Below, piece by piece: positions 11,406-32,911 of a stretch of DNA of 32,911 nt (positions are counted from its first letter, which is position 1; every line of letters starts with the position of its first letter). The DNA comes from Oligoflexia bacterium (GTDB lineage: Bacteria; Bdellovibrionota; UBA1018), in the NCBI GenBank assembly GCA_014376785.1, contig JACMQW010000033.1:1-32911 (forward strand), in the 5' to 3' direction. Below the pieces are notes generated by a model, which saw only the letters and a program-made list of their open reading frames with translations, did no database searches and had not been told where the DNA came from. The position numbers were made by a program, and so were the translations under genes.

Positions 11406-13361
11406 ATGACACGGTTTTTCACGCGAACGGCGGACGCTTGTGCTGAAATTTTCAGCCCGAGTCGAAAGCGAGATTCCGCGGGCAAAGAAATGAGAATTGC
11501 CTCTCCTCTCGGCCTGGGGAAACCAAATACCCTTCTCAATTTAATCTATGAGGAAGCGAGGATGCATTCGGAGATTTCTCTGAAGCTCTACACCGCTCTC
11601 TCACTTCTCCCCCCCTACCCTCGCGATCGCCTTGCTGAAAACTTCATCGGTCCGTTTCGAAATGCGCACTGGGGCGAAAACTACCCTGACCTAAAATACG
11701 CGCGGGACGGAAACGCAGCAAAGCTTCCGGCAAATGTTTCGGTTCACGAATTCTATTTTCAAGCGGGCGGGGCAATGGAGTCGCATCAACTCCAGCAAGC
11801 GTATCAGAGCATCAATTACACCCATGTGGTTGCCTCGCTTGTGGAAGCGAAAGTGGAAGTCCTCGTGCAGCTGATTGCTAAGCGAGCTGATCACCGAGGC
11901 ACTCGTTACAGCCTCTCCAGTAACCCCGATCTCACACTGGACTTAGTCGACGCTTATCGGAAAGCGGATCTCCCCCTCTACGTGGTAGGCGTCGTCCATC
12001 GTGACCTCCCCTTTTTGGGCGGCGAGGCTGAAGTTCCTGAAAATTTCTTCTCCGCCATCGTTGAAGATCCTGAAACAAATCATGAACTTTTCGCACTCCC
12101 ACGAACACCAATCAGCCCAGAAGATCACCTGATTGGATTCCACGCGAGCGGGCTCATCGCTGATGGCGGAACGCTCCAAATCGGAATCGGATCGCTCTCC
12201 GATGCAGTCGTTCACGCCCTCCTCGTCCGGCACCGAGATGAACGCCTCTACTCATCAGTCCGCCAAACGATTCAGGCAGAAAGAAAGCTCTCCCTCGGAC
12301 TCGATCTGCAGTCCGGTAGTTTTCGTGAAGGACTCTATGGACTCAGCGAAATGATCAATGACGGCTTTATGCATTTGAGAAAAGCCGGCATCTTGAAAAG
12401 AGAAGTCATCGACGAGGTGACCGGTAATCGCACCTATTTGCACGGAGCATTCTACCTCGGATCGAAGGCATTCTATCGCTGGCTCAGAGAACTGAGTAAA
12501 GAGGATGAGTCTGGCCTTCGCATGAGCCGCATCTCGAAGATTAATGACCTTTACGATCCAAATGAAATCCTCCTACGACGGCAACGAAAGAAGGCGCGCT
12601 TCTTAAATACTTGCATGCAAGTGAGTCTACTCGGTGGGGCGGCTTCCGAAACACTGGAAGACGGAAGAGTGGTCAGTGGGGTCGGTGGCCAATACAATTT
12701 TGTTTCCATGTCACATGAACTCGAAGGCGCGCGCTCGATTCTCATGCTGAGAAGCACGCGCGTTTCACGCGGAAAACGTTACTCGAATATCGTATGGGGA
12801 CACCGACACCTCACCATCCCAAGGCACTTGCGAGACATCGTGGTGACCGAATACGGGGCAGCGAATCTTCGGAATCGCTCCGATGAAGAAACCATCACCG
12901 AATTGCTAAACATCACCGATTCTCAGTTTCAAGATGGGCTCCTGAAACAAGCTCAGAAATTAGGCAAGGTCCGGTCAGACTACGAAATTCCAGATTGGGC
13001 GAAAAAAAATACGCCTGGTCAGGTTAAAAAATGGACGTCTTCCGGAGACCTGAGGGTTCACTTTCCTGCTTTTCCTTTCGGCAGCGATTTTACACCCGTT
13101 GAGGAGCGACTCGCTCTCGCGTTGGGCGATTTAGCAGCCTTAAAAGAGAGCAAGCCCAAGGGTAAGTTCTTCTTTTGGACCGTGTGCGAGCTGTGGAAGT
13201 CGATAGGCCCTCATTCGGGGACGTTCGGACCTGAAATCACGCGGATGAACTTGGGCAAAGGATCCGGATTGAAAAATTTCGTATTGCGACGTCTCCTGAT
13301 AAGAAGACTCGCTGAGAGACTCGAAAATCAAGAATCGAAGGAAGACCATGCATCCCCGTAA
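11406..13361 (+). CDS. Acetyl-CoA hydrolase / CoA-transferase family protein, long form
   Basis: A 651-residue protein. The central part has the CoA-transferase nucleotide loop 'DGGTLQIGIGSLSDAVVHALL' (about 253-273) and 'LYGLSEMINDGFMHLRKAGIL', whose Glu315 is the likely catalytic glutamate (the family's TEM/SEM motif). The C-terminal domain has 'SGVGGQYNFVSMSHELEGARSI', 'RHLRDIVVTEYGAANLRNRSDEE', typical of AcetylCoA_hyd_C. Such enzymes hydrolyse acyl-CoA or move CoA between acids. It is clearly longer than the usual 430-550 residues, with an N-terminal extension of about 100 residues and extra C-terminal sequence. Where relatives read 'EVDLxGxVN' this protein has 'MQVSLLGGAAS', so substrate use may differ. 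It overlaps rlmF by 14 bases. Confidence 0.85.
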   Translation: MTRFFTRTADACAEIFSPSRKRDSAGKEMRIASPLGLGKPNTLLNLIYEEARMHSEISLKLYTALSLLPPYPRDRLAENFIGPFRNAHWGENYPDLKYARDGNAAKLPANVSVHEFYFQAGGAMESHQLQQAYQSINYTHVVASLVEAKVEVLVQLIAKRADHRGTRYSLSSNPDLTLDLVDAYRKADLPLYVVGVVHRDLPFLGGEAEVPENFFSAIVEDPETNHELFALPRTPISPEDHLIGFHASGLIADGGTLQIGIGSLSDAVVHALLVRHRDERLYSSVRQTIQAERKLSLGLDLQSGSFREGLYGLSEMINDGFMHLRKAGILKREVIDEVTGNRTYLHGAFYLGSKAFYRWLRELSKEDESGLRMSRISKINDLYDPNEILLRRQRKKARFLNTCMQVSLLGGAASETLEDGRVVSGVGGQYNFVSMSHELEGARSILMLRSTRVSRGKRYSNIVWGHRHLTIPRHLRDIVVTEYGAANLRNRSDEETITELLNITDSQFQDGLLKQAQKLGKVRSDYEIPDWAKKNTPGQVKKWTSSGDLRVHFPAFPFGSDFTPVEERLALALGDLAALKESKPKGKFFFWTVCELWKSIGPHSGTFGPEITRMNLGKGSGLKNFVLRRLLIRRLAERLENQESKEDHASP

Positions 13362-14271
13362 TCGACACACCGGCCATTATGAATTTGAAAAGCTCGTAAA
13401 AGCCGTCCCCGAGCTAAAAGCTTTTGTGATTCGGAATCCTTCCAACGAGATGACGATCGACTTCGCAAATCCCAGTGCAGTGAAGACCCTCAACCAAGCG
13501 CTCATGAAACTTTTCTACGGTATCCGCGAATGGAATATTCCCGAAGGCTACCTCTGCCCACCCGTTCCCGGCCGTTCTGATTACATCCACTCGATTGCAG
13601 ATTTACTCGCGTCTTGTCACGAAGACCAGATTCCGCGAGGTGACGGTATTCGGGTTCTTGACATCGGGGTGGGTGCGAATGGAATCTATCCACTCATCGG
13701 GCGCAGTGAGTACGGCTGGAGTTTCGTCGGTTCAGATATCGATCCAGAAGCACTCGATGCGGTTGCCGCTACCATCGAGGCAAATGATAGCCTACGCGGC
13801 GGTGTCGAGCTTCGTCATCAAACCAACCGCGCCCGAATTCTTCGCGGCGTCATCGATGAAAACGAAGAGTTCGATCTGGTGATGACGAATCCACCTTTCC
13901 ACGAATCTCTCGAAGCTGCTCGCGGAGGAAGTGAACGCAAATGGAAGAACCTCGGTCGCGAAATCCGCGGCGCAAGTCCCGTATTAAACTTCGGAGGCCA
14001 GGGCTCAGAGCTCTGGTGCGAGGGGGGAGAAGTCGAATTCATCCGCACTCTCATCGATGAGAGCCGCGCTTTTGCGAAAACCGTATTCATTTTTTCCGCG
14101 CTCGTCTCACGCGAAATTCATCTTCCCGCACTTTATCAGGCACTCGAGCGGGCGAACGTCGACGATGTCGAGACCATCGAGATGACCCAAGGCCAGAAAA
14201 AGAGTCGCATTCTTGCTTGGACGTTTCTATCCCTCGACGAGCGGGATGCTTGGATGAAGCGGCGCTGGTAG
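13348..14271 (+). CDS. rlmF: RlmF, 23S rRNA (adenine-1618-N6)-methyltransferase
   Basis: A 307-residue SAM-dependent methyltransferase. The RlmF-specific start is 'MHPRNRHTGHYEFEKLVKAVPEL...FVIRNPSNEMTIDF', followed by 'ALMKLFYGI..WNIPEGYLCPPVPGRSDYIH'. The SAM loop is 'LDIGVGANGIYP' (about 104-115) and the catalytic motif NPPF is at 181-184. It methylates N6 of A1618 (E. coli numbering) in 23S rRNA. Its ATG lies inside the end of the upstream CoA-transferase gene (14-base overlap in another frame), so the two are probably translated from one transcript. The 3' end overlaps the opposing rhomboid gene by 45 bases. Confidence 0.95.
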   Translation: MHPRNRHTGHYEFEKLVKAVPELKAFVIRNPSNEMTIDFANPSAVKTLNQALMKLFYGIREWNIPEGYLCPPVPGRSDYIHSIADLLASCHEDQIPRGDGIRVLDIGVGANGIYPLIGRSEYGWSFVGSDIDPEALDAVAATIEANDSLRGGVELRHQTNRARILRGVIDENEEFDLVMTNPPFHESLEAARGGSERKWKNLGREIRGASPVLNFGGQGSELWCEGGEVEFIRTLIDESRAFAKTVFIFSALVSREIHLPALYQALERANVDDVETIEMTQGQKKSRILAWTFLSLDERDAWMKRRW

Positions 14272-17229: not shown

Positions 17230-18345
17230 CTACTTCTCCTGAGCCGCACGAAGTTCGGCAGCTTTTTCTTCGGGCACGCTATCGTTCACAAACATACCGC
17301 CTCCGAGTTCGGTTCCAGCTAGGTACTTCAGCCGGTCTTTCGTTCGGTAAGGAGGATAAATTTCGAAATGCACATGGGCTTCCGGATGGGCCGCACCATC
17401 GAGCGGCGCTTGATAAAGGATCATCAAATAGGGTTGCGGACGGTTCCAGAGCGCATCGTGTTTTAAAATGGTTTTCTTCAGGACCCGCGCTAAGGAATCG
17501 CGTTCCGCATCGTTCAACTCGTGTAAAAATGCGCGAGGTTTCGAAGGCGCTATCCAAGTTTCGTACGGATAACGAGCGAAGGCAGGAACGAACGAAAGTG
17601 CGGATGCCTCTCCCGTTTGCAACTCTTCGTCGACGATGATCCTTCGGCCATCCTTACGCTCAGAATCGATCAAGTCTTTGAAGAGGCCGCGACCGGTTTT
17701 TTCGTAGTGAGCGCTCATCGATTCCAGCATCTTCGCGGGAACTGGGGGAACGAACGGATAGGCGTAGAGCTGACTGTGCGGGTGGTGGAGCGTGACTCCC
17801 ATTTCGACGCCCCGATTTTCGAAGGGGAGGACGTAACGAATGCTTCTCTCGCGACTAAGCGCGAGCGTTCGCTCCGCGAGCACGTCGAGAATCAACCGAA
17901 TTCGCTCGACCGGCAAAGCACCGAGTGACGTATCGGGATCTTTCGTGAAGACGACTACTTCACAGCGTCCCTCGGCCGCCCGGGTCGGAACATTCGCGAT
18001 GATTTCTGAAGGCGCGACGGGATCCGTCGTCGTGTTTAAAGAAGGAAATAAGTTTTCAAACACCGCCACTTCGTAATCACCCGCCGGCATCTCGGTCGGA
18101 AAGTCCGAGGACTTCGTAACCGCTAACGGCGAATAATCCTTCGGCGGGAGAAAGGTTCGATTTTGGCGATGGCTTGCGTAAGCTACCCACTCACCTCGAA
18201 AGGGATGCCAGCGAAACTCGGGTTTCGCGGTCACCGCATCGTGCTTCGGATTTGTCGGAACGATCCCGCTCTCGATCGGACGAGTCGAGTAAAGGAAGAG
18301 GTCGCGCCCATCGGGTTTTTTCAGCGATTGGCTAAAAAAATTCAT
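17230..18345 (-). CDS. galT: Galactose-1-phosphate uridylyltransferase
   Basis: A 371-residue HIT-superfamily enzyme that swaps UMP between UDP-glucose and galactose-1-phosphate. The active-site motif is HPHSQ at 188-192 (classic HPHGQ; the second His carries the UMP). Other marks are 'RWHPFRGEWVAYASHRQNR' at about 45-63, 'VVVFTKDPDTSLGALPVERI' and 'HVHFEIYPPYR' near the end. The CxxC-type cysteine pair that binds zinc in E. coli GalT is absent here; the equivalent region reads 'LPPKDYSPLAV'. Its ATG overlaps the stop of the preceding 73-aa gene (ATGA), so translation is coupled. Confidence 0.93.
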   Translation of the reverse strand: MNFFSQSLKKPDGRDLFLYSTRPIESGIVPTNPKHDAVTAKPEFRWHPFRGEWVAYASHRQNRTFLPPKDYSPLAVTKSSDFPTEMPAGDYEVAVFENLFPSLNTTTDPVAPSEIIANVPTRAAEGRCEVVVFTKDPDTSLGALPVERIRLILDVLAERTLALSRERSIRYVLPFENRGVEMGVTLHHPHSQLYAYPFVPPVPAKMLESMSAHYEKTGRGLFKDLIDSERKDGRRIIVDEELQTGEASALSFVPAFARYPYETWIAPSKPRAFLHELNDAERDSLARVLKKTILKHDALWNRPQPYLMILYQAPLDGAAHPEAHVHFEIYPPYRTKDRLKYLAGTELGGGMFVNDSVPEEKAAELRAAQEK

Positions 18346-28488: not shown

Positions 28489-28503
28489 TGGCGGAGAGAG
28501 TGG
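28489..28503 (-). other. Attachment-site-like remnant: 3' end of a tRNA-Ser gene
   Basis: On the minus strand this reads CCACTCTCTCCGCCA, the typical end of a bacterial tRNA-Ser (acceptor arm plus CCA). The bases before it on that strand do not make a tRNA, and T-rich sequence follows the CCA, as after a tRNA gene. It lies 52 bases beyond the stop of a tyrosine recombinase gene. This is what a target-site copy left by integration into a tRNA 3' end looks like. Confidence 0.6.
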
Positions 28504-28555
28504 AATCTCCCTAAGCCATTGATTTAACAGGACTGAGCCTTGCCACTAACTACAT

Positions 28556-29656
28556 TCAACTACGGACAGGTAACGCAATTACCTTCTGCACGTTAGCGCT
28601 AGCGTCATGGAGACTTAGGCAATCCGTACTTCCGACAATATCGATCCCTGCTTTTCTCGCGTAGATCATCATTGTTTCTAGATCCTTCCAGCCACCCATT
28701 TTCATAACTTTAATGGCTTGGACACCCTTCCCAAGTAGCAGGGTTGCCCATGTAGCCCTTAAGTCATGAAACCGTAGCGCAGGCAAATTCATCCCTACCA
28801 GGAACCGTTGAAGCTCCTTGGCTTGGTCGCCTCTGTCCCACTTGCATAGACGCGGAAGAACAAATGTCTCGCCCCTACTGTTTAGCTTAAGCTCACGCAT
28901 CACGGGGATAAGGCCGGGAGGAATTTCCACTACACGGTCGTCGCCGGACTTGGTTCTATCCTTAAACCCATTTTTATTGTCCCAAGCACATTTCACGAAA
29001 ATACGACGACCTTCTAGATCGACGTTGTCCCAAGTGAGAGCGTACAGTTCACCATTGCGCATCCCTGTATAGATCGCCATGGACCAATGCGGATACCAGT
29101 CATCATTAAGCTCACGTGCCGTATTCAAAAATTCCCGAACCTCTGGCTCAGTGAGAACTAATTTAATTCTCTCCCCAACCCGAAACTTAAGCATTGGAGT
29201 CGGATTATTAGCAATGAAGCCGGAATCGACAGCATGCTGAAAAGTTCGTCTGAAACTTTTGAGAATGTATTTTTGATGGCCCGATGATTTATGTCCCACG
29301 GCCTTTCGGTGAGTCTCCAATATATCCGATCTTGTTATCGAATTAATTAAGCGATTTTCCCACTCAGGCAATGTGTGCGCTTTTAGACAAGTAGAATATC
29401 CGTGAATTGTTTGCTGCGAATATCCGAGTAAACGGCATTCATCTAAAAACAAATCGATTACCTTTGGCCAAAGTGGAATCTTTAAAGACTCAATCTTGCG
29501 ATCGACCTCTAATACCAACTCCGTATATATTTTCTTAGCATCACGCTCGGTCGCAACTCCTTTACGCGTAAGCGATACAGGTAATTGTTTTGGCCCCGGA
29601 CGCTTTGAATAAGAAACCGTCCAACAATTCTTTAAGGTGTCTTTTTTAATTCCCAT
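28556..29656 (-). CDS. Tyrosine recombinase (phage-type integrase)
   Basis: A 366-residue integrase. The N-terminal part (about 1-60) resembles an arm-binding AP2-like domain, followed by a core-binding SAM-like domain (about 62-155). The catalytic domain has Arg200 in 'YTGMRNGELYALTW', Lys236 in 'RTKSGDDR', H297xxR300 in 'LRFHDLRATWATLLL', Trp323 in place of the second His in 'GGWKDLETMMIYAR', and the nucleophile Tyr332. All residues needed for strand exchange are present, so the enzyme is probably active. AAGGAG lies 6-7 bases before the ATG. It would integrate the element at the adjacent tRNA-Ser-like site together with the small HTH protein just upstream. Confidence 0.94.
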   Translation of the reverse strand: MGIKKDTLKNCWTVSYSKRPGPKQLPVSLTRKGVATERDAKKIYTELVLEVDRKIESLKIPLWPKVIDLFLDECRLLGYSQQTIHGYSTCLKAHTLPEWENRLINSITRSDILETHRKAVGHKSSGHQKYILKSFRRTFQHAVDSGFIANNPTPMLKFRVGERIKLVLTEPEVREFLNTARELNDDWYPHWSMAIYTGMRNGELYALTWDNVDLEGRRIFVKCAWDNKNGFKDRTKSGDDRVVEIPPGLIPVMRELKLNSRGETFVLPRLCKWDRGDQAKELQRFLVGMNLPALRFHDLRATWATLLLGKGVQAIKVMKMGGWKDLETMMIYARKAGIDIVGSTDCLSLHDASANVQKVIALPVRS

Positions 29657-29666
29657 AGGAACTCCT

Positions 29667-29921
29667 TCATTTTGATTTCCTCAAAAGAAGTTCTTCAAGG
29701 TCACTGACCCGAAATCGATTAAGTCGTCCGATTTTTCCGCTTACTTCAATTGTCCCATTACTTACTTTATTCCTTAATGAACCAACTGAAATTCCAAGAA
29801 AATCGGCGGCCTCACTCGAATTAAGCCATTCCTTATTTTGAGACCCTGCAAAGTAATTACCCTGCAAATTCTCCTCTATTGTATTTTCAAAGACCCTTTT
29901 GGAACCGTTTTGGCTCGGCAT
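29667..29921 (-). CDS. Excisionase-like helix-turn-helix protein
   Basis: An 84-residue protein whose second half is a MerR-type/excisionase HTH: 'LNSSEAADFLGISVGSLRNKVSNGTI' followed by 'GRLNRFRVSDLEELLLRKS', the usual 'wing' pattern of helix_turn_helix_17 proteins. Such proteins bend DNA at the att site to steer the integrase toward excision, or act as repressors. AAGGAG is 5-6 bases before the ATG. It ends 10 bases before the integrase start on the same strand, the standard xis-int order. Confidence 0.85.
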   Translation of the reverse strand: MPSQNGSKRVFENTIEENLQGNYFAGSQNKEWLNSSEAADFLGISVGSLRNKVSNGTIEVSGKIGRLNRFRVSDLEELLLRKSK

Positions 29922-29942
29922 AGCTACTCCTTCGGTTAGAAT

Positions 29943-30353
29943 TTAAGAAGAGGAATTGGTAATTTTAATTAGTTCCGCAGAATATTGAGCCTCTAGGTGC
30001 TTAAGGCGTTTTGAGAGAGTTTGGATTAACCTAGAGCTGGGGGACTTTCCGAATAGCGGCTCCTCTTCCTCTAATTCGGCAATTTGATTTCGAATTAGTC
30101 GGATTAAAGAATCCATTTTCAGTAATTTCGAAGTATCGAAAATCGTTGAAGAATTGAGCAGACCCCATATTTCTCCATTCTTATGGAGCTCTGTAATTCG
30201 ATAAATTCCCACTTTGCCACGAATAAAAACCTGCACACCGCAGGAGTCGCAAAAGAAATAAGGCTTATTCTTCTTCGACATTCGAATTTCCCTGAATTCC
30301 AAACACGTAGGACATGGGTATTCTTCTGGAAGACCGCTTCTAAGCTCGCTCAT
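29943..30353 (-). CDS. Zinc-ribbon protein with a helical C-terminus, unknown function
   Basis: A 136-residue protein. The N-terminal zinc ribbon has two Cys pairs: 'YPCPTCLEF' and 'FFCDSCGVQVF' (residues about 14-17 and 35-38). The C-terminal half is a charged helical stretch ('KMDSLIRLIRNQIAELEEEEPLF', 'TLSKRLKHLEAQYSAELIK') that may be a coiled coil. Its ATG overlaps the end of the rep gene by 14 bases, so it is likely co-translated and may assist replication, for example as a DNA-binding or Rep-partner protein. That role is inference from context. Confidence 0.72.
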   Translation of the reverse strand: MSELRSGLPEEYPCPTCLEFREIRMSKKNKPYFFCDSCGVQVFIRGKVGIYRITELHKNGEIWGLLNSSTIFDTSKLLKMDSLIRLIRNQIAELEEEEPLFGKSPSSRLIQTLSKRLKHLEAQYSAELIKITNSSS

Positions 30354-31266
30354 ACGTGCTACCCGTACTTCTATTAACGTTACATAACGTTGGGCCTGGT
30401 TCCGGGGGCTTTATTCTGCGAGTCGCTCTAAAGCCCTGAATGTAATTTCTTCGGTCAGTGAGATCGGAATGGATATAGTTCCCCAGTATATTGCGTGCCT
30501 CGGTCTCAGAGACTTTACAGAAGCGGTACTGCGCATTCGATTCCGGACGCGACTCCCTCAACAATTCGTTCAAATTAATTCCCTGAGAAGTTGAATACGC
30601 GCGGCCTTTTCCGTGTTCGAGGGACCGCATTTGCTTTCCAAGGTATTTAGAAAGATATCGGGCCGCGCCCGTGTCGGCCTTTCGAATGTCGACAATAGGT
30701 CCTCCTCCGACCGATACCCATGCCTGCTTTAACCATTCATGATTAATGAATTGATCGAAAAGAATATGGAGATGGGCTCGCCCATTCTTTTGAAATTCGA
30801 CAACCGATACAAACTGGATCGGAGTATTGAATTTCCGCATTTGAAGAATTCGGAATTTATTCCAACTTTTCCGAATATATTTCCGGCTTTCGTTAGGATC
30901 GGACGGTGCGGTTTTCGGGTCGAGGGTCAAAGACGCAAACACGCGCAACCCAAACTTATCGATAGCGAGTTCAATTCCCTTCTGAACCTGAAAAACCTTC
31001 CGAGGTCCGCAGTAGTCGCATCGGTATGACTTACAAAAGGTTTTAAAGTGGGAAAACAAACCCTCCGAATCAACCGTTCCGCTGAGAAGAAAATCAGCAG
31101 ATTTACATGGCGCGGGGATATTTCTTTCTGCGTCGACCGAGTCTTGCGAGCTGTTGGAGTTACGCTCTATTGAATCAAGGGAATTACGAGAAACTCTCCC
31201 AGAGACTTTCTTAATAAGAGTGGCGCGAGGCCCTTTTTCGTCATTCGATATCATTTGATTGCTCAT
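30340..31266 (-). CDS. HUH-endonuclease replication initiator (rolling-circle type Rep)
   Basis: A 308-residue protein with the three motifs of HUH Rep proteins in order: motif 1 'FASLTLDP' (110-117), motif 2 'HLHILF' (His165 and His167), and motif 3 'YLSKYLGK' with candidate nucleophile Tyr204 or Tyr208 and Lys207. A zinc-type cluster 'FCKSYRCDYCGPRK' (Cys78, 83, 86) precedes motif 1, as in phage and plasmid Rep proteins. Such enzymes nick a hairpin origin and start rolling-circle copying. A long polar N-terminus (1-60) looks disordered. AAGGA lies 7-8 bases upstream of the ATG. The tandem hairpins just before the gene are a plausible target. Confidence 0.85.
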   Translation of the reverse strand: MSNQMISNDEKGPRATLIKKVSGRVSRNSLDSIERNSNSSQDSVDAERNIPAPCKSADFLLSGTVDSEGLFSHFKTFCKSYRCDYCGPRKVFQVQKGIELAIDKFGLRVFASLTLDPKTAPSDPNESRKYIRKSWNKFRILQMRKFNTPIQFVSVVEFQKNGRAHLHILFDQFINHEWLKQAWVSVGGGPIVDIRKADTGAARYLSKYLGKQMRSLEHGKGRAYSTSQGINLNELLRESRPESNAQYRFCKVSETEARNILGNYIHSDLTDRRNYIQGFRATRRIKPPEPGPTLCNVNRSTGSTYERA

Positions 31267-31344
31267 AGTTAAGTCCTTTTCTAGACGTAGAAATCCCTGC
31301 CGAGTCTCACTCAGCTAAAATCACTTCTTTCGAGAACCATTTTG

Positions 31345-31391
31345 GTTGGGAGGACGAGATAATCTCGTCCTCCCAACGCCCCACTTGGGGC
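31345..31391. other. Tandem hairpins upstream of rep: candidate replication origin
   Basis: Hairpin 1: a perfect 14-bp stem (31345-31358 with 31364-31377) and an ATAAT loop; the symmetry extends further into the loop. Hairpin 2 follows without a gap: GCCCC (31378-31382) and GGGGC (31387-31391) with an ACTT loop. No T-run follows on either strand, so this is not a standard terminator. It sits in the gap between spoVG-like and rep genes. HUH initiators recognise hairpins of this sort next to their gene. Confidence 0.5.
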
Positions 31392-31436
31392 CTTGTCCCA
31401 CCTCAATGGTTTAAGAAATGGGCAAGATTAAGGTCG

Positions 31437-31724
31437 CTACGCTCGTGTCTCAGGATGCGTATTGTAAGACTCGATGATTTTCGGATACAGATGAGCTTGT
31501 AAGGTTCGGCTCGTCCAAAGCATTTCCTTGTAAGCAGTCTTTCCATTTTTATCCTGGTACTTTTCCTGCGGCGGCGCTACGAACTGCCCTTTCCCTGACA
31601 TCTCAACCACCCGAAAACCTTTAAGCGCGATTTCACCTTTTGAAGTTTGGAAAGACACATCCACCTTCGCTTTTAAGGATGATTTTCCTTTCACCGGCCA
31701 GACCTTAATTTCAATTATTTCCAT
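31437..31724 (-). CDS. SpoVG-like small DNA/RNA-binding protein
   Basis: A 95-residue protein when started at the ATG at 31724, which has a perfect AGGAGG 6 bases upstream; the frame is open further back to 31808 inside the polymerase gene but lacks such a site. The text 'IIEIKVWPVKGKSSLKAKVDVSF', 'IALKGFRVVEMSGKGQFVAPPQEK' and 'YKEMLWTSRTLQAHLYPKIIESY' follows the SpoVG pattern. SpoVG proteins bind nucleic acid and regulate genes; copies also occur in phages and plasmids. It overlaps the end of the polymerase gene by 14 bases, so the two are one operon. Confidence 0.7.
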   Translation of the reverse strand: MEIIEIKVWPVKGKSSLKAKVDVSFQTSKGEIALKGFRVVEMSGKGQFVAPPQEKYQDKNGKTAYKEMLWTSRTLQAHLYPKIIESYNTHPETRA

Positions 31725-32911
31725 TGGGTTCCTCCTTACGATTTTCGCTTTTCTTAGCCTCAGTCCATGTCGAACCGATGCCTCCGTCGACCTGCAGTGG
31801 AATCGCAAACCACGAGACAGGGTCTTCTAGAACTCTTTTAATTTGCACGAATAGACGTTCGGCTTGCTCTTCCGGCGCTTCAAGAATGACTTCATCGTGC
31901 ACATGTAGAAGAAACTTCACGCTGAGTGGCAGCGCTCGCCTGATCTGCACGAGCTTGTATTTGAAAAGCGTGGTTGCCGATCCTTGAATCACCGCATTGA
32001 TTGCCTGCCGTTCGGCTTGATAGCGTTCGTATTCGTCTTCTGAAGATATGGCGTCGATATAGCGCCGACGACCCATCAGACCTTCAGCGAAGCCGGTTAG
32101 ACAGGTTGTTTTGATTGTGCGTTTTTTAAAAAGTTCAATTTCTGGATATCGTTTAAAGAACTTCGAAATAAATCCCTGGGCCTCGGCCAATGATACGCCG
32201 AGATTCGTGGCCATTCGCTTAGCGCCGAGCCCATACATCACACCTAACACCACCTGCTTAGCGATATCCCTCACCGGTGCATTTGTACTTTCATTTGAAA
32301 ATACTTCGGTCGCGAGGCGGGTGTAGAAGTCCTGGTCAGACGAAAATAGTTCACGGAATGCGCCTTCACCAACAAAATGAGCAAGAGCGCGCGGCTCGAT
32401 CTGAGAAAAATCGAATACGATAAGTTTGTGGCCAGGTCGCGATTTGAAGAGTTTTCGTAGTGAAGATTTCTTCTCGATATTTTGGAGATTGGGATTCGAC
32501 GAAGTGCACCTTCCTGTATCCGCACCCAGTGTGTTTATGTACGGATGGATCGCATTCGTGTCAGGGTCGGAGAATCGGAGAATTGTATCGCACTGCTTAA
32601 GCTGACCGATTAGCTTCTGGCGTTGAATTAACGCCTCGATTCGGAAGTCGGGAAGTAGCTGCACGAGTGCCTTGTGCGAGGTCGATACTTTTCCGTTAAG
32701 AAACGCTAAAGGAAGATTCCATTCGCCGTAAACCAATCGCTTTAACTGCAGATGCGAATTCAAGTTTACGCTCGGCGCATTTATCGTAGCTTCGTTAGAA
32801 CTGATCCCACTTTCGGTTTCATAGCGTAGTTCAGATACGGCTCCTCTATCGACGAGGATTCCATTTCGTTCGCATTCTAAATTTACCAATGCGAATGGCC
32901 GCTCGACTTCG
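31711..32911 (-). CDS. Family A DNA polymerase (Pol I-like), C-terminal part; 5' end beyond the window
   Basis: The frame is open through the right edge: before the first possible TTG start (32889) the codons still read 'EVERPFALVNLECERNGILVD', matching the Pol A stretch that links to the polymerase domain. So the gene is cut by the window, not started at 32889. Motif A 'DFSQIEPR' (32389-32412), motif B 'RDIAKQVVLGVMYG' (32230-32271), 'QAINAVIQGSA' and motif C 'HVHDEVIL' (31882-31905) are all present, so the polymerase is probably active. At the position of E. coli Phe762 it has Leu (32245-32247), known from viral Pol A. Whether it has a 3'-5' exonuclease domain cannot be seen. It would copy the element's own DNA. 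Confidence 0.9.
   Translation of the reverse strand, partial: EVERPFALVNLECERNGILVDRGAVSELRYETESGISSNEATINAPSVNLNSHLQLKRLVYGEWNLPLAFLNGKVSTSHKALVQLLPDFRIEALIQRQKLIGQLKQCDTILRFSDPDTNAIHPYINTLGADTGRCTSSNPNLQNIEKKSSLRKLFKSRPGHKLIVFDFSQIEPRALAHFVGEGAFRELFSSDQDFYTRLATEVFSNESTNAPVRDIAKQVVLGVMYGLGAKRMATNLGVSLAEAQGFISKFFKRYPEIELFKKRTIKTTCLTGFAEGLMGRRRYIDAISSEDEYERYQAERQAINAVIQGSATTLFKYKLVQIRRALPLSVKFLLHVHDEVILEAPEEQAERLFVQIKRVLEDPVSWFAIPLQVDGGIGSTWTEAKKSENRKEEPNGNN

Follow-up and report, generated by a model that had tools for sequence, protein, structure and literature searches.

An HUH replication initiator and a family A DNA polymerase side by side in a candidate tRNA-integrated element of Bdellovibrionota

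Why should a gene for an HUH replication initiator lie in one compact block with a gene for a family A DNA polymerase, and do the two belong to a mobile element that replicates by means of both? The question is raised by the right-hand end of a 32,911-nucleotide stretch of DNA (hereafter the window), which is the whole of contig C98 in a 3.2-Mb, 103-contig Bdellovibrionota MAG of 96.6% completeness and 2.15% contamination. Ordinary chromosomal genes lie to the left of position 28489, and six minus-strand genes follow at 28489-32911, in the transcription order polA, spoVG-like, rep, zinc ribbon, HTH_17/Xis and integrase. The genes and sites are as follows.

28489..28502, minus strand: attR-like fragment CACTCTCTCCGCCA at the integrase-side boundary, identical to the last 14 nt of tRNA-Ser(GGA) at C77:1410-1499 (pattern search, tRNA scan)
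28556..29656, minus strand: tyrosine integrase, 366 aa (PF00589 2.7e-19, phrog_1 2.8e-47)
29667..29921, minus strand: HTH_17 protein, probable excisionase, 84 aa (PF12728 7.3e-11, phrog_66 excisionase 1.8e-4)
29943..30353, minus strand: zinc-ribbon protein, 136 aa, its four cysteines and FIR motif invariant in three relatives
30340..31266, minus strand: HUH replication initiator, 308 aa (PF23343 1.4e-12, phrog_3419 9.5e-15)
30376..30391, no strand assigned: palindrome AACGTTACATAACGTT / AACGTTACRTAACGTT, candidate operator, just upstream of the zinc-ribbon gene
31335..31411, no strand assigned: T-shaped fold, candidate origin, with outer stem 31335-31341/31405-31411, large hairpin 31345-31377 and small hairpin 31378-31391
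31437..31724, minus strand: SpoVG-like protein, 95 aa (PF04026 7.3e-8 to 1.6e-7, above the curated cut-off), alignable with its counterpart in the related element described below
31711..32911, minus strand: family A DNA polymerase, C-terminal 399 aa (PF00476 5.8e-82)

A first-pass annotation of the DNA had proposed this minus-strand block, and all six of its genes were recovered in place and on that strand, with two corrections: polA is incomplete because the contig ends there, and only one boundary of the element falls within the window. The start codon of spoVG lies within the 3' end of polA, so that the two genes overlap.

The same annotation had suggested looking for other genomes that carry Rep, SpoVG-like protein and Pol A in this order, and one was found. 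With Rep as the query, a set of 369 genomes from the phylum yielded a single relative, G158, whose contig was also the only match among GTDB genomes, where it belongs to the uncultured Bdellovibrionales MAG Kiruna_bin-06382, of another family of Bdellovibrionota. The G158 element carries the six genes in identical order, with identities to the window of 48% for Rep, 49% for the integrase, 51% for Xis, 46% for PolA and 32% for the zinc ribbon, and thus the block in the window is no chance assembly of open reading frames. On sequence evidence, the arrangement of Rep and PolA is unusual and is conserved across two families of the phylum.

Rep matches PF23343 at 48.2 bits in the window and 54.7 bits in the sister element, against a curated cut-off of 27.8. 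Whether the Rep motif residues would hold in homologues had been named beforehand as a point on which the proposal could fail; the motifs TLDPK, HLH (165-167) and YLSKY (204-208) are invariant in the window and G158, which conserves the HUH histidines H165-L-H167 and the catalytic tyrosine motif in both elements. Outside these two elements the relationships are distant. The match of Rep to the RepSA profile is weak (4.2e-4, below cut-off), the sister Rep has weak matches in inoviruses, microviruses and a pleolipovirus, and its nearest match in the phage collection is ORF1 of HRPV-1 (31% over 122 aa, E 5e-5). The Rep profile (PF23343, phrog_3419), which takes in Reps of the filamentous-phage and microvirus types, is common to the element and to these viruses; the matched virus genomes are of 3-7 kb. 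The window Rep matched nothing in IMG/VR or among the phages and plasmids searched, and no PolA was seen at the other PF23343 Reps of the phylum in the loci read. The predicted structure of Rep (pLDDT 44) and that of a 321-aa protein of the sister element (pLDDT 36) were too poor for use, and a fold search gave no match at E <= 0.001. Two further PF23343 proteins of the phylum were noted on short contigs: a Rep at L034 664-1958 (G251:C41, 7.1 kb, another Bdellovibrionota genome), possibly of an inovirus-like replicon, and a strong match (1.9e-25) at L031 (G320:C35, 4.6 kb), possibly a microvirus binned with the genome.

The polymerase has kept its catalytic motifs A, B and C (DFSQIEPR, R..AK.V.L...YG and HDE), which are invariant in the window and G158. 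The sister PolA is complete, with 3'-5' exonuclease and polymerase domains, and no 5' nuclease domain was found in it. The element polymerases differ from the host Pol I, which either genome has besides: they reach 836 and 1266 bits, whereas the chromosomal-type polymerases common to most genomes of the phylum stay at or below 278 bits, and the window genome has its own separate Pol I. In a PolA tree, from which the coverage filter removed the polymerase of a third contig (G163, below), both element polymerases form one clade with support 1.0 on a long branch, the deeper placement of which is not settled. Family A polymerases about 30% identical to the element PolA over the domain are found in IMG/VR, and the polymerases of tailed phages (phrog_17) are alike in family and in this degree of identity; they differ in their surroundings, since in the 80 viral loci inspected around polymerases of this kind no Rep, SpoVG or zinc-ribbon homologue lies nearby.

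Between spoVG and rep, where the first-pass annotation had placed a candidate origin, the DNA is indeed structured, and the structure recurs in the complete G158 element. At the window site two 16-nt arms, 31345-31360 and 31362-31377, make a perfect inverted repeat, and the 91 nt around it fold as single-stranded DNA with z = -6.7, a value to which 0 of 200 shuffles came up; the G158 site gives z = -5.4. Both sites form a common figure in which a 7-bp outer stem (AACCATT/AATGGTT in the window, AAACGTT/AACGTTT in G158) encloses adjacent hairpins of 5 bp (GCCCC/GGGGC and GCTCC/GGAGC, respectively) and 15-16 bp. The pairing is kept by compensatory changes. In a MAFFT alignment six pairs are changed on both sides, against 3.0 in shuffles, a count reached by 6 of 500 shuffles and lost when the partners are slid by 1-3 columns, and these statistics are modest as they come from two sequences only. 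The alignment underestimates the large hairpin, the arms of which differ by one pair in length and fall out of register; read arm by arm, 15 of 15 pairs form in both elements, with one wobble in G158. The site folds equally strongly as RNA on either strand, and its one match in Rfam was sub-threshold. We regard the T-shaped fold as the best candidate for an origin; it may act on rep as an RNA regulator, or be an origin of the double-strand or of the single-strand kind.

The ends of the element are best seen in G158, where a 13-nt repeat of the tRNA-Met 3' end (L009:7146-7158) stands at 17342-17354, 62 nt past the integrase stop. A terminator-like hairpin and T-run follow this repeat, as would be expected at a place to which insertion had moved the former downstream sequence of the tRNA. 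The element between the tRNA-Met 3' end and the repeat is about 10.2 kb, a span that counts a 432-aa open reading frame beside the tRNA as a candidate member. In the window MAG, the tRNA-Ser(GGA) whose end is repeated at 28489..28502 has its 3' end 1.4 kb from the end of contig C77, and between the tRNA and the contig end lies a 391-aa open reading frame (L013 44-1219, G000:C77) with no relative in the phylum or in the phages and plasmids searched, as expected of cargo. The tRNA probably marks the other end of the window element, C98 and C77 probably being joined, and the 391-aa frame is a probable cargo gene at that end. In G340, of the same genus, about 1 kb separates a homologue of window 13348-14271, which is in inverted orientation, from the ClC gene, the neighbour of the tRNA on C77. 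No other contig of the window MAG matches the 24-nt right end of C98, and none matches the N-terminal part of the sister PolA or the 321-aa protein of the sister.

What the complete element contains, and lacks, narrows its identity. Its cargo includes a SIR2-domain protein (L009 9303-11069) with a match of 5.2e-198 to PDC-S65, a defence candidate in PADLOC, and an XRE-type regulator gene before it. Among the G158 element proteins scanned, no capsid, portal, tail or terminase family was found above Pfam cut-offs, no relaxase, mobilisation or secretion family was recognised, and there was no FtsK/SpoIIIE-type transfer gene. An ordinary tailed prophage or ICE with a known gene set had been named as an outcome that would refute the original proposal; the complete relative has no such set, and therefore the element is neither a recognisable phage nor a recognisable ICE. 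The scan also found no helicase, primase or recognised SSB, so that of the initial description the pairing of an HUH initiator with the element's own family A polymerase is upheld and the word self-sufficient is not.

A third contig bears on how tightly the two replication genes are bound. A profile of the zinc ribbon, which has only weak Pfam matches, found relatives only in G158 and G163 among the 369 genomes. On the 4.6-kb contig G163:C61 (L153 1-4604) a tyrosine integrase stands next to an intact tRNA-Ser(GCT), and the contig further encodes the zinc ribbon, an HTH_17 protein and a PolA that is about 21% identical to the sister PolA over the aligned part. In the position of rep stands a short winged-helix-like frame with an in-frame stop codon before it, and no HUH Rep is present in the 4.6 kb sequenced, which ends inside polA. 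A Silvanigrella phage (CP017838) matched by this PolA has no Rep or zinc ribbon. The palindrome that precedes the zinc-ribbon gene has the look of an operator: a TAACGTTACGTAACGTTA-like palindrome is near-identical at the corresponding site of G163 (L153 2468-2483), and in G158 (L009 near 15495) one half is kept and the left half is degenerate. The make-up of the G163 contig points to a modular exchange of replication genes on a shared backbone of zinc ribbon, Xis and integrase. Since the G163 PolA has no visible HUH Rep, PolA and HUH Rep may not depend on each other.

Among known systems, AICEs of the pSAM2 type are alike in their tyrosine integrase, Xis, HUH-type Rep and chromosomal integration (PMC3218068), and here too integrase and Xis lie near an HUH-type Rep at a tRNA gene; they differ in their FtsK/SpoIIIE-type Tra, which was not found in G158; the elements described here have a SpoVG-like gene and a polymerase of family A. 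Pipolins, as PMC7385651 describes them, are likewise integrative elements encoding their own DNA polymerase. That polymerase is of family B and primer-independent, whereas PF00476 is found in all three elements here, in the window and G158 with an HUH nickase. IMEs and phage satellites share the small size, the integrase, the tRNA insertion, the cargo and the want of structural genes, and differ in relaxase, mobilisation and packaging genes, which were not detected in the G158 element; Rep nicking may have a role in mobilisation. We take the arrangement to be an unusual form of a known kind, the tRNA-integrated rolling-circle element, which possibly makes up a small class of its own. In the literature covered, no HUH Rep and family A polymerase were reported in one integrative element, and as that coverage is partial their absence is unproven.

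With moderate confidence, we read the block as one end of a small tRNA-integrated rolling-circle element that has its own polymerase and would replicate via Rep and PolA. The gene content, the boundaries of the sister and the conserved fold are seen in the sequence, whereas excision, nicking, polymerase use and transfer we infer. Integrase and Xis would excise the element as a circle, and Rep would place its nick in one strand, within or close to the folded site, and remain on the 5' end. The element PolA, Klenow-like in the relative, would then extend the free 3'-OH and displace the old strand, possibly helped by a host helicase, while the SpoVG-like protein would bind or regulate nucleic acid. 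The released strand would be closed by Rep and made double-stranded by host enzymes, and the circle would reintegrate. No transfer or capsid genes were found, and therefore the element would depend on a helper or on uptake of DNA to pass from cell to cell. Carriage may be favoured by cargo next to the intact tRNA, such as the SIR2-type defence candidate of the relative. More tentatively, such elements could form a distinct class in Bdellovibrionota, in which HUH nicking at a T-shaped origin is coupled to a dedicated family A polymerase, leading-strand synthesis is independent of the host replicase, anti-phage genes are carried and initiator and polymerase are exchanged as modules. The class first suggested would comprise two elements with the full gene set, along with the third contig, related and lacking an HUH Rep in its available part.

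The element might instead be an ordinary rolling-circle integrative element whose Rep uses the host replicase, with PolA serving in gap repair, in second-strand synthesis after transfer, or in defence or counter-defence, an explanation we consider rather unlikely. In pSAM2 it is host Pol III with a helicase that elongates from the Rep nick (PMC3218068), the backbone in G163 carries a different PolA and no visible HUH Rep, and the sister PolA matches a PADLOC model of defence-associated PolA at 3.9e-42, a match that may reflect the shared polymerase domain only. Against it, in both elements polA has the candidate origin and rep as neighbours and retains its catalytic motifs.

A phage satellite, excised, replicated and packaged when triggered by a helper phage and freed by its own PolA from host or helper polymerase, would agree with the small size, integrase and Xis, the lack of structural genes, the replication module of its own and the defence cargo. 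We think it improbable, given that no gene for packaging or capsid remodelling, and none like a terminase, passed the Pfam cut-offs in G158 and that no relative of Rep or of the zinc ribbon was found in viral contigs. Nor is it probable, and here our doubt is strongest, that a degenerate prophage or composite genomic island brought the genes together by chance; only part of the element lies in the window and tRNA-borne islands are often composites, but the complete sister element, in a different family, has open genes in identical order with conserved motifs and cis sites.

If the block is indeed a tRNA-integrated rolling-circle element that brings its own polymerase, such an element, with nickase and polymerase together in distant hosts, would be a natural example of rolling-circle replication served by a dedicated replicase, would link rolling-circle elements with self-synthesizing ones, and would carry defence genes in a lineage to which predatory bacteria belong.
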